From contig BCHH01000002.1 in NCBI GenBank assembly GCA_001599595.1, positions 1,092,390-1,156,389 of the forward strand: a stretch of DNA of 64,000 bases. The letters run 5' to 3'. This stretch comes from Beverwykella pulmonaria (Eukaryota > Ascomycota > Dothideomycetes > Pleosporales > Melanommataceae). Shown piece after piece: positions 4,919 to 51,185 of this stretch; within the stretch, counting starts at the first letter, position 1; each line of letters starts with the position of its first letter. Position numbers and translations under genes: made by a program. Under the pieces are notes generated by a model that was given only the letters and a program-made list of their open reading frames with translations, had not been told where the DNA came from and ran no database searches.

Positions 4919-6834
4919 ATGGCAGAGCCACCCGCCGTCTTGGCCGAGCTGTCGGCACACCTGCACAAGGTTGACCAAGATCCTGCTACCCCGCTAGACA
5001 TAGAGCTCCTGGAGCAATGCGAGCTGTTCACAAGCACGCCAGAATACCGCACCCAGCTGTGGAACGAGACGCAGCCCCTCTTTCTGCAGTTGGCCGGTCT
5101 GCTGCCCAAAATCCAACAGGATCCGTCGCCTGTCATACGCTTCATCGCGAAATTGGCCGTCCCATATCGTTTCGAGGACATCAAGGATCTGGGGTTTGAG
5201 ATTGGCCTCGATCTGGATGCCACACCTTTCCATAGCCTAATCCTCTCCTTGTTGGAGAAGGCTGCCGCGAGTAGCCACGATGCTCAGGCACTAGCAAACA
5301 GACCTGCTGTTATATCGGCCGTTGTCCGCCTATGGCTGTGCACCAAGGACACCGGAATAGCCACTCAGGCCGCTGACCTCCTCATCTCCTTATTACGAGT
5401 CTCCAAGAATGAACCAATGTCTGTGCCAGGTGAGGCTCAGTTGCACAGTTATGGAACAGGCCCAATCTGGAAACGACTCTTCAACGACCGGGACATATAC
5501 TCGCTCTACTATCAGTACACGTACTTCTTGAACTTCACAGCATCCCCGCTCCTCAACAAGCGCGACAAGACCGTTTGTCAGGCGAGACTACTAGAATGGC
5601 TACCCAGAGTCGGCAAGATGGACTGGAGTACCATTATCTCCGGTCACGGTTCCGATGCGGAGCGGGAGGTTGGACTTTCCGAATCTGAAGGTCTTCTTCA
5701 TTACGCGGCTTTGAAGATGGTGAAGACCGCGGACGACATCCTGATGCATATGACACTCATCAACTTCTTCAGTGATCTCATCACAACGGTGAGAACGAAG
5801 CCACACCTTACGCAAGTGCCCTCAGTAGACAATACAGACTACCCGGTTCAATCTAACCGTGTAGCAGGCATTACGATTCGAGCCTGTCTCTGGACTTCGT
5901 CAAAGACCAAGGCATTCACAAGGAGATTATCAGACTTCATACGGACCCGAATCCAAGCATGGAGCAGTCTTTTCTGGGCACCCGAACCGCACACTACATC
6001 AGCGAATACGCCATCACGTACCCGGAGAACTTTGAGAAGAGTTCAGAGTTGAGTGTCATCCGCCAGTTCATCCAACGCAACATCTCCAGGTGTGAGCCCA
6101 ACGATCTCAACATTCTTGTTTCGATGCCGCGTCAAACTCTCATTCCCCGCACGTCGGCTGGTTTTGCCTGGGGTGACTGTGTCTTGTTAGATGTACCAAT
6201 CGTCAAGACCAGGCCGGAAGCACTCAAGACACTCGCGACAGTGTTCCACGGTCCGCCAAAGGCACCCATCACCTTTCCTCAAGTCGAATCCGTGGACATC
6301 GATAGAAGGCGAAATGAGGTCGAACGGATCTACGCCCGCATCCTCACGTCCCTCTACTACACCAAGAACCCCACCATGTTTGCCAACATTGTTACTCACT
6401 CAGAAACAATCGCCATCAAGGAGAACGCCCTCGCTGCATTAGCATTACTTAGAGCAATCATCACATCAGACTGGGAGGCCAACATCCCTCCAGACCTCAT
6501 CCCAGACACGGAGCCGATATTTCTACGTCTCCAGGAATTTCCCAAGACCGGTATCGACGTGATTCTTGACCCAAGTCTAAGTGGAGGTGTGCTCCCCTCT
6601 CTACTTAAGCCTGCTACCTCGTTTTCCAACCTGGTTGGCGGTCACGGCGATGCGGAGGATGCAGCCTATCAGGTTGCGATGGCGAAATTTGACGTACTGA
6701 AAGCGCTCGGGAAGAGGCTGGAACAAGAGGGTAGGCGACAGGACGTTCTCACAATGGTGCAGAGGAGGATTTCGGAGGGTCCGTGGGGTGTCAGTGGTGG
6801 TGTAGGAAGCAGAATTGGTACCCTTGATCTCTAA
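4919..6834 (+). CDS. HSM3: Hsm3-like 19S proteasome assembly chaperone (PSMD5/S5b type)
   Basis: Two exons (4919-5811 and 5868-6834) encode 619 residues of all-helical, HEAT/ARM-like sequence. Yeast Hsm3 binds the C-terminus of Rpt1 and helps build the proteasome base; it is also named a mismatch-repair protein. Family-like blocks are IELLEQCELFTSTPEYRTQLW, LISLLRVSK, LHYAALKMVKTADDILMHM and LDFVKDQGIHKEIIRLHT. The start is the ATG at 4919, reading MAEPPAVLAEL; an upstream in-frame ATG at 4871 would add 16 unlikely residues. The intron uses a GC donor (GCAAGT at 5812) and ends at GTAGCAG (5867). No GT donor in reach keeps the frame, whereas this one gives HLTHYDSSLSLDF. Family assignment is by pattern and is good but not certain. 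Confidence 0.8.
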
Positions 6835-45686: not shown

Positions 45687-48450
45687 ATGGCGCAGACAAA
45701 TGGAGACTTTGCTCAGGGTCTGAACGACCTTGTAGACCAGATGACACTAGATGAGAAGATCACGATGCTTGCGGCAAAAAATGTCTGGGAAACGCCTTCA
45801 ATCGATCGATTAAGTATCCCTTCTCTCAAAGTACGGTCCAGCACTCCCGCTTTACTCCTACCATATGTTTCCTCATCTAAAAACCATCAAGGTAACAGAC
45901 GGACCCAACGGCGCGCGAGGAGGAGATTTCTTTGGCGGTACAACAGCAGCATGTTTCCCCGCCTGCGTTTCCCTCGCTGCAACATTCAACCGCACTCTTT
46001 CCCATCAAATCGGCAAAGCGCTTGGCCAAGAAACTATCACCAAAGGCGCGTATGTGCTTCTTGGACCCACTGTGTGCTGCCATAGATCTCCACTCGGTGG
46101 TAGGAACTTCGAAGCTTTCTCTGAGGACCCTTTCTTGTCCGGGACGCTGGCGAGCGAGTACGTGAAGGGGTTGCAAGGGGAGAGGGTCGCGGCGACAGTC
46201 AAGCATTTTTTGGCGAATGAGCAGGATACGAGGAGGTTTTCTGTCAATCAGAAAATTTCTGAGCGGGCTCTACGGTATGTCGACTACTTCGATTCCTAGA
46301 AGAGGGATTGCTTAAAAAAATATTGACAGGGAGATCTATCTAAAGCCGTTCGAAATGGTAGTAAAAGATGCAAATCCTTGGGCGTTTATGTCAAGTTATC
46401 CTAAGATCAATGGGGGGCATGTTGATGCACAGGCCAAGTTCTTGATTGATATTTTGAGGGGAGAGTGGGGATATAAAGGGTTGGTTATGTCGGATTGGGG
46501 TGCGGCGAGCACGGTTGAGAGCGTTAAATATGGGCGAGTACAATTTTCATTCTTGATCAACTCATCACTAATAATGTAAAGTTTGGACCTCGAAATGCCA
46601 GGACCAGCTCGACAGAGGACGCCAGAAGCAGTCCAGAAAGCTCTAGAGGAAGGGAGAATCAGCAAAGCAGATATTGACAACCGGATATTCGCTACCCTCA
46701 AACTGCTGAAACAGACGGGCAAGTTCGACGACCGCAAAAACACCCCGAACGAGCAAGCGATAAATCGACCTGAGCACCGTGCCCTAATACGGAAAGCTGG
46801 TAGTGAGGGAATCGTGCTTTTGAAGAACAATAACAATATCCTCCCCATTGACGTGGGTAGAACGACAAAGATTGCGCTACTTGGTCCGTTGGCAACATAT
46901 TCAGCTGCTCATGGCGGCGGGAGCGCGTCACTGAATTGCCATTACAAGGTTTCGCCGTACGATGCCTTCACAGAACGCCTGGGGAAGCAGGTGAAGATAA
47001 CGCATGGCAAGGGTACGTCTTAGTTTTTGTGCAAAGGTACAGCACGCTAATAGAATTTCAAGGTGCACATATCTTCCGCGAATACCCCGATATTGAGGCT
47101 GGCTGTACAAACGCTCGCGGAACTCCCGGGTTCCTGGCTGAATACCATATGGCTTCTGACGCTAAAGGTGAGCCCTTCCACGTTGAGGAATTTCCCCGTG
47201 GTCGATTTACGACGCTCATGAACACCGCCGTGACTGGGTGCCAAACCGTTCGCTTCACTACAACATACCGTCCACCAGTCTCCGGAAACCACTATCTTAG
47301 CTTCTCTGGCCTTGGGCCATCTAAGCTATTTATCAACGGTGTCCTCATCGCCGACCAAAAAGCCCCAATCAAAGACGCTATGGGCTTCTTCCTCGGCGTG
47401 CAAGAGGAAATCCGCGTCCAACACCCCTTTTCCCACCAACCTTACAACATCGTCATAGAGACCCACCCTTCACCATATTCAAACTCAGAACTTTACCTCA
47501 TGGATGGCCAGTGCTCAATTCATCTCGGCTTCATCACGCAAGCGGAAATGGAACACAACGTCCTGGCCGAAGCCGTCGCATTAGCAAAAGAAGCTGATCT
47601 CGCCATCCTCTTCGTAGGAAATACCACACAGTGGGAAACCGAAGGGCAAGATTTATCTTCCATGACACTGCCAGCTGACGGTTCGCAAGATCTGCTCATC
47701 TCTTCTGTCGCAGCCGCCAATCCCAACACTATCGTCGTCAATACGACCGGCGTCCCGGTAGAACTCCCCTGGCTCGATAATATCTCTGCCTTCTTGCAAG
47801 CATGGTATGCCGGCCAAGAGACTGGAAACGTGATCCTGGACGTGCTGCTTGGAGACGTCAGTCCGAGCGGGAAATTACCCATTTCCTGGCCGAAGAAGTA
47901 CGAGCACACAGGCTGTTATGGGAATTTTGGACTCGATAGTTATGAGAGTAGGGAGGTGAAGTATGTAGAAGGTGTGTTTGTAGGTTACAGGTGGTTTGAT
48001 AGGCACTGGGGTGAGGAGAAGGAGGTCAGGTTTCCGTTTGGATACGGGTTGAGCTATACGGAGTTCGACGTTAGCAGAGCTGCACTCACAGGAGCTATAT
48101 CCAGCGATCCTAAGGCGGAGGTGAAGGTCACCACGCAAGTGAAAAATATAGGAACTAGACCAGGAGCAGAAACGGTGCAGGTATATCTCGAACCGCCGGC
48201 TGTTGAGGGTCTTGAGAGGCCGGTGAAGGAATTGGTAGGCTTTGTGAAGGTGGAGTTGCAGCCAGGTGAAGAGAAGAGTGTTGAGGCGGTTTTTAAGAGG
48301 GATAGGGCGGCGTATTGGGATGAATGGGGGAAGAGGTGGGTTGTCAGTCGTGGGACATATGGGGTAGTGGTTGCGACGAGCTCAGGACCGGGAGATGTTA
48401 AGGCGAGGTTGGAGACGTGTGTGGAGATGGGGTTTACGTTTAGTCCTTGA
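45687..48450 (+). CDS. Intracellular GH3 beta-glucosidase with PA14 domain
   Basis: Five exons (45687-45830, 45892-46274, 46330-46533, 46582-47012, 47063-48450) encode 849 residues. GH3 enzymes hydrolyse terminal beta-glucosyl residues with retention. The N-terminal TIM-barrel shows VTDGPNGARG, CCHRSPLGGRNFEAFSEDP, VKHFLANEQ and the nucleophile in VMSDWGA (about D231). The second domain holds LLKNNNNILPI; a PA14 insert lies at about 400-560 (GFLAEYH... LYLMDG). The fibronectin-III-like end has FPFGYGLSYTEF. No signal peptide is present, so the enzyme should be cytosolic and act on an imported beta-glucoside, matching the neighbouring transporter. Intron 3 uses a GC donor (GCGAGT at 46534); no GT donor there keeps the frame into LDLEMPGP. 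Confidence 0.93.
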
Positions 48451-49419: not shown

Positions 49420-49883
49420 GATAGAGATGGAGGCTGCAGTACGGTTCCTCTTCCGTTCTGTTTCTACGTGATTGCAATGACTGGGCCGGTTTTCTTGGCG
49501 ATGTTGGTGTTGTTAGTGTCGAAGAGTTTGGATATGGAGAGGCGGGATAGGACTGGAGTTGATGACAATCACTCAATCCCGGTTGCCTGGTGAGAATGTA
49601 TTGATATAAGGGCCTTCGCCTTCCAGTGGTGAATAATATTGAGATCGCATTGTGTGGATAAGGTTGACAGATTGTTCTAGCCTATTCACCCTCTTGGTAA
49701 CAATAAAAGTGATAGATAGCACATGCAAAATGAGTCGTGGAAGCGAGAGAATGCATAATACTAATGTGATACTAATACAGGCTTCTCTCTCATGTACGGT
49801 ATTCAGACGTCTCTGTCGCTCTGAACAAGCGTGGCGTTGCTTACTCTTGAACAACGTAAATATGCAAAAAGATATCATTGTAA
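49420..49883. other. Intergenic, upstream of the hypothetical gene and downstream of the tRNA
   Basis: No protein gene is supported. It contains the Pol III terminator of the tRNA at its right end. Confidence 0.45.
49866..49870 (-). terminator. RNA polymerase III terminator (T5)
   Basis: Five T on the minus strand, 13 nt beyond the tRNA 3' end, is the standard Pol III stop. No T4 or longer run occurs within the tRNA or its 49-nt insert, so the whole gene should be transcribed. Confidence 0.7.
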
Positions 49884-50013
49884 CGACACCTGAGTGATTC
49901 GAACACTCGCTCCCTGAGTATCGTTAGTACTTGATTTAAGGAATAGAACTGAAGTAGCTTACCGAAGGAACGGGCTTAGCAGGCCCGCGCGTTAACCACT
50001 CCGCCAAAGTGCC
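49884..50013 (-). tRNA. tRNA-Ser(GCU) with a 49-nt intron-like insert in the variable arm
   Basis: Read on the minus strand, the acceptor stem is GGCACTT/AGGTGTC with discriminator G. The D arm is GCG-GAGTGGTTAA-CGC, the anticodon arm CGGGC-CTGCTAA-GCCCG with anticodon GCU, and the T arm GAGTG-TTCGAAT-CACTC. Box A (TGGCGGAGTGG) and box B (GTTCGAATC) are intact. The anticodon loop has no intron. Instead the variable arm is split after TTCCTTCG by 49 nt, with GGAGC following. Without those 49 nt the gene gives an 81-nt tRNA with a variable arm TTCC-TTCG-GGAG closed by a UUCG tetraloop, typical of serine tRNAs. Confidence 0.9.
49914..49962 (-). other. Spliceosomal-type intron inside the tRNA-Ser variable arm
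   Basis: The 49-nt insert begins GTAAGC, carries a perfect TACTAAC branch site and ends ACTCAG, with the branch A about ten bases before the end. Length and signals match the mRNA introns in this window. The location (variable arm) is not where tRNA splicing endonuclease cuts (after position 37). A small internal stem TACTT/AAGTA is possible. Confidence 0.75.
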
Positions 50014-51185
50014 TTGATGACATAATTACCCTCATACATATTAATTATATATACACCATGTCTAGTTTAATGATTCTAGGAGTTCAACAGTTGTGCGCGC
50101 GCGTGAATGCTTATTCGTTTGCTCTTTCTTGTAGAGAGCGGGGTAAGATGTGACTAGAAGCGCATTTTAGGCATCCCGGATCCACATCGTACCACCAATC
50201 CCACCAACTTATCTGATCAAGATACCGCGTACATTGCTCTGCGATCGCAGAATTAATTGAAATACGAGTTCAATGTTATTCTCGCGTCTATACTAATGTC
50301 AGAGAAAAGCCAACTAGTTTGGAATCAAGAGCGGAAGGGTACAAAGGAGTAAAGAACGTTGAATCAGTAAGCTAGAATTTTCATCACATCATAGTAAGTG
50401 CATAAATGTAGAACAATAACTGTGCGCAGTCGAGCGCCACAGTTTAAAGTGCATGCCGATCATTCTGGCATACACAACTCGTTACCCTTATTATCCACTC
50501 CAGATTCGCCGCTGAACCTTTCATAGTTTCCCTTCTCTTCAAGCTCTAGCCTAATAGCCCTGTTTCGTGTCTGTAGTTAATTCATTCCCGGCTGCGTTTC
50601 ATTGGATCTTCTCAGCGGGTTCTTCCAATTGATTTCAAGCTTGCCTCGGCGTAAAATCGATATACTGACGCTTATGGAAAGCCCTACATAATTAGAGCAT
50701 CTACTATTAGTCTTCTCGGCTCAGACTCCGCAATGCGGAATCCCGCTCCGCGTTCTCATTCCACTCCGCACTCATTCCCGCGGACTTGCGCTATGTCACT
50801 GGTAAGATTGTGAGAGCAAGCAATGGATACATAGGTAAAAGGCTCTAATGCGGCATAAAATGTTCGAAACACTTCCCAAAAGCGTAAGCAGTGTGGATTC
50901 TCTACAGTTTAATCCTTCAGGCAGACGAGTTCCTGAGACGAGAAAAGTGGAGACAAAAATATCAGGCAGCATTATTCTTTTGTTTTTAAACATTGGAGGT
51001 TGTTTACTTCCCATTTACTATACCAATAGTTGAAATTGATAGCTGAGAGATTTTCAAAGGGTTTTCTCTTTCTTGATCCCAATTCCACTCTCAACACCGC
51101 TTTTGCAATCCAACTCCATCTCTAACCACCAACTCCAGTCCAAATATCCTTTCCAGAAACTCAATCACCAACACAAACCACTAAG
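50014..51185. other. Intergenic, upstream of the short-chain dehydrogenase
   Basis: No gene is seen. It holds a short GC-alternating run near 50093 and a cluster of CTCCGC words at 50725-50770. Confidence 0.4.
50725..50770. promoter_or_regulatory. Cluster of CTCCGC motifs upstream of the SDR gene
   Basis: ACTCCGCA occurs at 50725-50732 and 50763-50770, CTCCGC at 50746-50751, and the inverted GCGGAA at 50735-50740. The first copy and GCGGA can form a small hairpin. The same CTCCGC word occurs in the glucosidase promoter. Confidence 0.35.

Follow-up and report, generated by a model that had tools for sequence, protein, structure and literature searches.

In the fungus Beverwykella pulmonaria, at least 16 nuclear tRNA genes are interrupted by introns, at least 20 in all, that are very probably spliceosomal (U2-type) and would be removed to make working tRNAs. 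These introns suggest that the machinery of mRNA splicing is used for making tRNAs in this fungus. Nuclear tRNA introns are otherwise taught as the domain of a protein endonuclease acting at one position, and tRNA finders have been built on this assumption. Behind the reading put forward here stand features directly visible in the DNA: where the introns begin and end, their splice signals, the tRNAs restored by their removal, empty sites, and motifs for promoters and terminators.

An interrupted tRNA-Ser(GCU) gene

The window, by which we mean the whole 64-kb stretch of DNA analyzed, contains on its reverse strand an interrupted tRNA-Ser(GCU) gene of 130 nt (49884..50013) that shortens to 81 nt once an insert is removed. 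A preliminary description of the window had read this locus as a complete serine cloverleaf with anticodon GCU, and that assignment holds. The Rfam tRNA model (RF00005) matches the locus over its full length at 50.9 bits (gathering threshold 29; E 5.7e-8) with the insert aligned as an insertion. ARAGORN called no tRNA in a scan of the 64-kb window and, when introns were allowed on the gene itself, miscalled it as Leu(taa); from the spliced sequence it reads Ser(gct), with the anticodon GCT at 49978..49980 on the reverse strand. The insert is an mRNA-type intron of 49 nt located in the variable arm between G and G (49914..49962, reverse strand), dividing a 5' exon of 51 nt (49963..50013) from a 3' exon of 30 nt (49884..49913). 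On the same strand it begins with the 5' splice site GTAAGC (49957..49962), contains the branch-site-like TACTAAC (49923..49929) and ends with the 3' splice site CAG (49914..49916). Both internal promoter boxes are unbroken in the DNA, as had been described earlier: TGGCGGAGTGG (49996..50006), which we take in name and extent to be the A box, and GTTCGAATC (49896..49904), which we take to be the B box. A T5 run resembling a Pol III terminator lies 13 nt 3' of the gene (49866..49870), and 5' of the gene is TATATATA (50046..50053), with TATAWA at -40 and -38, these features all being on the reverse strand as well. Folding of the whole precursor gave nothing distinctive (z -0.73).

A search for other tRNA-Ser(GCU) genes, which the preliminary description had proposed, found one intronless paralogue in the same genome at C7:2756790-2756870. 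It is identical to the spliced window gene at 80 of 81 positions, so the 81-nt product predicted earlier is matched by an existing gene. The sole exon difference, T for C at position 6, turns a C-G pair into U-G and keeps the pairing. No long match was found in common when the flanks of the two genes were compared. Because the intronless paralogue represents an empty site, it fixes the length of the insert, whose position a self-match confirms. Aligned to the paralogue, the insert can slide by one base in either direction, and of the three resulting placements one gives GT..AG. The insert in the window gene is thus confirmed as an observation. The presence of the empty-site paralogue, together with 15 more genes carrying the same intron type, makes chance an unlikely explanation.

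Interrupted tRNA genes across the genome

The genome (45.6 Mb in 31 contigs) was searched by DNA and pattern searches, and the fetched stretches were then read by eye. Beyond the window Ser gene, mRNA-type introns interrupt the genes for His(GUG) a and b, Leu(CAG), Leu(AAG) a and b, Leu(UAG), Glu(CUC), Val(AAC) a and b, Val(UAC), Arg(UCU), Trp(CCA), Phe(GAA), Thr(UGU) and elongator Met, at sites that range from the acceptor stem to the T arm. The interrupted genes are spread over nine contigs, which rules out an assembly artefact. The second His gene, whose sequence is unlike that of the first, is interrupted as well. Three introns each are found in Arg(UCU) and Thr(UGU), and in Arg(UCU) only three bases of the first exon lie inside the tRNA. 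A short intron at position 37/38 was also read in 13 of the 16 interrupted genes, the exceptions being Ser, His_a and Leu(CAG).

No mRNA-type intron was seen in 32 other tRNA genes inspected, comprising 28 from a genome tRNA scan (63 of 1174 candidates scored) and four further genes read as Gln(CTG) (L040), Glu(TTC) (L043), Leu(TAA) (L090) and Ser(TGA) (L104); ARAGORN assigns L043 to Arg tct and L090 to tta. The interrupted share among inspected genes is therefore 16/48, which is no census since the searches scored part of the candidates, one pattern was covered for part of its matches, and fetching was targeted. One genome pattern search gave 206 matches, compared to 133 in a backward control, and was read among the first matches listed, on the earlier contigs. 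No readable tRNA was present at seven B-box sites (L037, L042, L056, L066, L069, L071, L072) or at eight sites from later patterns (L093, L094, L096, L098, L099, L100, L105, L106). A genome query with 24 tRNA sequences matched the Glu gene alone. The tRNA set is incomplete, since tRNAs for Asp, Tyr, Cys and Pro, and Gly(GCC), were not read among the search returns.

Several side observations were made during these searches. The terminator string TTTTTGC is common to the ends of many tRNA genes here. A Lys(CTT)-like sequence (L091, C2:3821710-3822120), whose D arm is shortened and whose acceptor stem is poor, is probably decayed. At L068 (C11:306700-308700), ARAGORN gives three odd and doubtful tRNAs (Asn att, SeC tca, Tyr gta) inside 500 bases. 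The sequence GTTCGACACGAACCCAAACCACTTGCGTTGTTTTTTGC has 13 unchanged occurrences and several variants (e.g. C1:549837, C1:2735695, C2:2495917), and belongs to a dispersed repeat family.

Splice signals and intron lengths

The 20 tRNA introns begin with GT in 19 cases and with GC in one, that of Leu(UAG), and all 20 end with AG. Past the GT, G is found at +5 in 20/20, A at +3 in 18/20 and A at +4 in 16/20, and the base preceding the intron is G in 14/20. A CTRAY branch-site motif lies at -20..-12 in 16/20 introns, compared to a mean of 0.95 and a maximum of 6 over 2000 sets of interior shuffles; it is missing from that range in Leu(CAG), Val(AAC)_a and introns 1 and 2 of Thr. Intron length is 47-58 nt in 19/20, the remaining intron having 72 nt. 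The GT and AG counts are partly by construction, since both dinucleotides were looked for when the genes were read by eye. The +5 G, the branch site, the length and the upstream TATA were not used as criteria in reading the genes, and the GT/GC-AG ends are permitted independently by the Ser and Phe empty sites. In their ends, their 5' consensus past GT, their branch site and their protein-gene-like length, these introns have the features of the U2 type.

Introns of protein genes in the window provide a local comparison. Three of the four sought, all but the first GH3 intron, were delimited, by spliced alignment restricted to GT/GC-AG ends, and are 50-56 nt long, with CTRAY at the usual distance in 2/3. 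Two, both delimited against two Pleosporales homologues, belong to a GH3 beta-glucosidase gene on the forward strand: one of 55 nt (46275..46329; GTATGT..AG) has no CTRAY at the usual distance, and one of 50 nt (47013..47062) reads GTACGT..GCTAAT..AAG. The third, delimited against three homologues, is a GC-AG intron of 56 nt (5812..5867, forward strand; GCAAGT..TCTAAC..CAG), the same rarer type as that in the Leu(UAG) tRNA gene. Since lengths and signals are alike, the tRNA introns resemble the ordinary introns of the genome, as far as a small sample of three can represent them. Among proteins encoded in the window, one has 85% identity to proteins of Pleomassaria siparia and Melanomma pulvis-pyrius, and a second has 83% identity to a Melanomma protein.

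Restored tRNAs and intron boundaries

With the mRNA-type introns alone removed, ARAGORN calls a tRNA in 16/16 genes and the expected anticodon in 15/16. The remaining gene, Val(AAC)_a, is misread by ARAGORN after splicing, and its mature sequence was read as identical to that of Val(AAC)_b. Before splicing, only three of the 16 are called at all, namely the window Ser gene as Leu, the Met gene as Gln, and Leu(CAG), whose anticodon comes out right and whose 5' half is wrong, so that no interrupted gene is right end to end.

Boundaries were also assessed with a home-made tRNA shape score that is blind to splice signals, shifting the cuts by up to 10 nt per side. The annotated cut is among the top shape scores in 15/20 introns, and another cut scores 1-3 points higher in the other five: Ser, Leu(AAG)_a, Val(UAC) and introns 1 and 2 of Thr. 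Of these disputed cuts, paralogues back those of Ser and Leu(AAG)_a; the cuts in Val(UAC) and in introns 1 and 2 of Thr, which have no such backing, are the least certain. Shape scores are lowest (37) for the three Val genes. Once spliced, His_a aligns to the Rfam model with nonstandard pairs, and at minimum energy it does not fold into a cloverleaf.

Paralogues as empty sites

Empty sites back the insert length or the spliced product in three families: Ser, Phe and Val(AAC). For Phe, a 3'-truncated copy aligns through the intron site to the spliced gene, with 90.8% identity over 130 columns including 5' flank. This copy (L101, C3:2370050-2370420, reverse strand) is without the D-loop intron and has one anticodon base changed, and its T arm stops exactly at the start of a GTAAGT-like sequence. 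The Val(AAC) a and b genes have identical mature sequences and carry introns at different T-arm sites; with the same mature tRNA and different intron sites, each serves as an empty site for its partner. In the Leu(AAG) pair, the intron site after base 6 is shared and the exons differ by one inserted base; between the introns the splice signals are kept while the remainder has diverged.

Transcription signals of the interrupted genes

A TATAWA motif lies at -65..-22 in 13/16 interrupted genes, compared to 2.1 expected from shuffles. The same motif is upstream of 14/28 uninterrupted tRNA genes (3.5 expected), and so is not special to the interrupted ones. These upstream motifs also lend weight to the 5' ends as assigned, a number of which depend on exons only 3-11 nt long. 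A T5 run starts 0-30 nt 3' of all 16 genes. Within the introns TTTTT occurs in 0/20 and TTTT in one (Leu(AAG)_a), compared to 3.8 in shuffles. With box extents as generally given, the A box is split by an intron in five of the 16 genes: Leu(CAG), Glu(CUC), Phe, Val(UAC) and Thr. The B box is split in Val(AAC)_b, and the B-box core is kept where T-arm introns end in AG just before TTCRA. Split A or B boxes should weaken Pol III promoters.

In a non-exhaustive DNA search of the genome, 12 spliced sequences, representing 13 genes, returned an intronless version for Phe only, and that one truncated. These queries left out Leu(UAG) and Met, and Ser has its intronless sister. All His and Trp genes found are interrupted, in non-exhaustive searches that may have missed intact copies.

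Alternative explanations

The preliminary description had left two readings of the window gene side by side, processing by the spliceosome or an inactivated copy into which an intron was recently inserted. Generalized to the genome, the latter would make the interrupted genes pseudogenes struck by intron-like insertions while intact genes do the work. The intronless tRNA-Ser(GCU), the further truncated copy of Phe (L101) and the possibility that non-exhaustive genome searches missed intact copies would fit this, as does the treatment of eukaryotic D- and T-arm insertions as mostly pseudogenes in PMC4090602, a review. However, all 16 genes splice to tRNAs, 13/16 have an upstream TATA motif and all have T5 within 30 nt; among 13 genes tested, an intronless copy exists for Phe only; and +5 G and branch sites are kept in diverged introns, which is unexpected of dead copies. 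Wholesale pseudogenization is accordingly a very improbable account of the set, and of the two earlier readings the spliceosomal one is favored, with 16 genes and 20 like introns behind it. For the window gene alone confidence is somewhat lower because of its intronless sister, and there an inactivated copy with a recent intron keeps some probability, although the window copy departs from that sister by a single change that preserves the pair.

An origin of the whole set in a recent introner-like burst, placing near-identical introns in tRNA genes, is highly unlikely. The presence and absence of introns among the Ser, Phe and Val paralogues do show gain or loss after duplication, as such a burst would require. 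Nonetheless the 20 introns share no BLAST match longer than 9 nt with one another (E up to 1), so that the introner-like families raised in the preliminary description find no counterpart among them, and a genome search with the window gene for copies of its 49-nt insert matched only the exons of the gene elsewhere, a search insensitive to diverged copies. As for catalytic introns, Rfam on the window and on four of the 16 loci matched tRNA alone, with no group I/II catalytic core. Group I/II introns are far larger than the 47-72 nt seen here.

It is also most unlikely that the tRNA splicing endonuclease cuts these introns as bulge-helix-bulge structures at odd positions, in the manner of archaea or Cyanidioschyzon. 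The intron sites do overlap the archaeal 3/4, 25/26, 45/46 and 53/54 positions given in PMC4090602, and multiple introns per gene are known in archaea according to PMC8450103. Yet the 4-bp central helix is complete in only 1/20 introns, compared to 0.34 in shuffles (a single register, relaxed forms excluded), and the spliceosomal signals would be left unexplained. None of the 20 mRNA-type introns is at 37/38, and the introns that these genes carry at 37/38, delimited as 12 sequences, measure 7-29 nt, none of them GT..AG. Transcription of some genes by Pol II, with splicing through spliceosome coupling and T runs surviving as relics, would account for the upstream TATA motifs and for the split A box in five genes. 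It is nevertheless a very unlikely arrangement given T5 at 0-30 nt after 16/16 genes and in 0/20 introns, and TATA motifs at 14/28 uninterrupted tRNA genes as well.

Other Pol III genes

A general invasion of Pol III genes is unsupported, since the 5S and U6 genes listed are uninterrupted, although the searches could have passed over interrupted copies. One U6 gene was listed, a full-length model match without insert (47 of 2588 candidates scored), and of 23 5S genes listed (47 of 2265 candidates scored), all whole-model matches, none is interrupted. The 5S rRNA genes are dispersed, with at least 23 full-length copies across 9 contigs. The U6 gene (L073, C3:4042637-4042737) has a B-box-like GTTCGAATC (C3:4042806) followed by T5, about 70 nt downstream; this recalls yeast U6, which has a downstream B box.

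Relation to known introns

Introns of the mRNA type occur in the U6 snRNA genes of some fungi. Like the introns described here, they are spliceosomal-type introns in a Pol III transcript; unlike them, the present introns lie in tRNA genes, in many genes and several to a gene, while the one U6 gene found in this fungus is uninterrupted. The canonical 37/38 introns also lie in tRNA genes, 13/16 of them here, and differ from the mRNA-type introns in position, length, signals and presumed enzyme.

Among published cases, PMC5832005 concerns introns in fungal U3 snoRNA genes, which are alike in lying in a fungal small RNA gene and different in that the gene encodes a snoRNA rather than a tRNA. Spliceosomal introns in ascomycete rRNA genes, for which PMC11889510 cites Cubero 2000 and Bhattacharya 2000, are likewise mRNA-type introns of non-coding genes, yet of large rRNA and not tRNA. 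PMC4090602 and PMC8450103 treat non-canonical introns in the tRNA genes of archaea, Cyanidioschyzon merolae and nucleomorphs, with similar positions and several introns per gene. In archaea and C. merolae such introns depend on the bulge-helix-bulge motif, whereas here its central helix is incomplete in 19/20 and spliceosomal signals are present. The searchable text of PMC4090602 has no occurrence of "spliceosom-", and PMC8450103 (tRNAscan-SE 2.0) limits eukaryotic tRNA genes to one intron. Searches of an open-access library, which lacks most subscription papers and all bioRxiv preprints, turned up no earlier account of nuclear tRNA genes with spliceosomal introns.

Proposed processing and implications

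The preferred reading is that U2-type introns in these genes are removed by the spliceosome, and it implies an order of events. Pol III would transcribe the interrupted genes and stop at the T5 run. The upstream TATA box probably aids this transcription, a role proposed because five genes, Leu(CAG), Glu, Phe, Val(UAC) and Thr, have their A box divided by an intron. The spliceosome would then excise the GT-AG introns, and in one case a GC-AG intron, before the cloverleaf forms; this step is placed first because the acceptor, D or T arms would otherwise be unable to form. RNase P and RNase Z would next trim the ends, and the tRNA splicing endonuclease would take out the 37/38 intron where one is present. 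Judged from the sequence, spliceosomal introns have probably invaded the nuclear tRNA set on a large scale. The spliceosome would then be obligatory for a number of tRNAs, among them His, Trp, Phe and Arg(UCU), and the supply of tRNA would depend on the two splicing machineries one after the other.

If tRNA production here requires the spliceosome, the spread of introns reaches past protein genes, and translation capacity would be coupled to spliceosome activity. Such genes would also escape ordinary annotation, as illustrated by ARAGORN, which got none of the 16 unspliced genes right from end to end. The Ser, Phe and Val paralogues, with and without an intron at one site, offer unusually clean material on intron gain and loss in genes whose bases are almost all under constraint.
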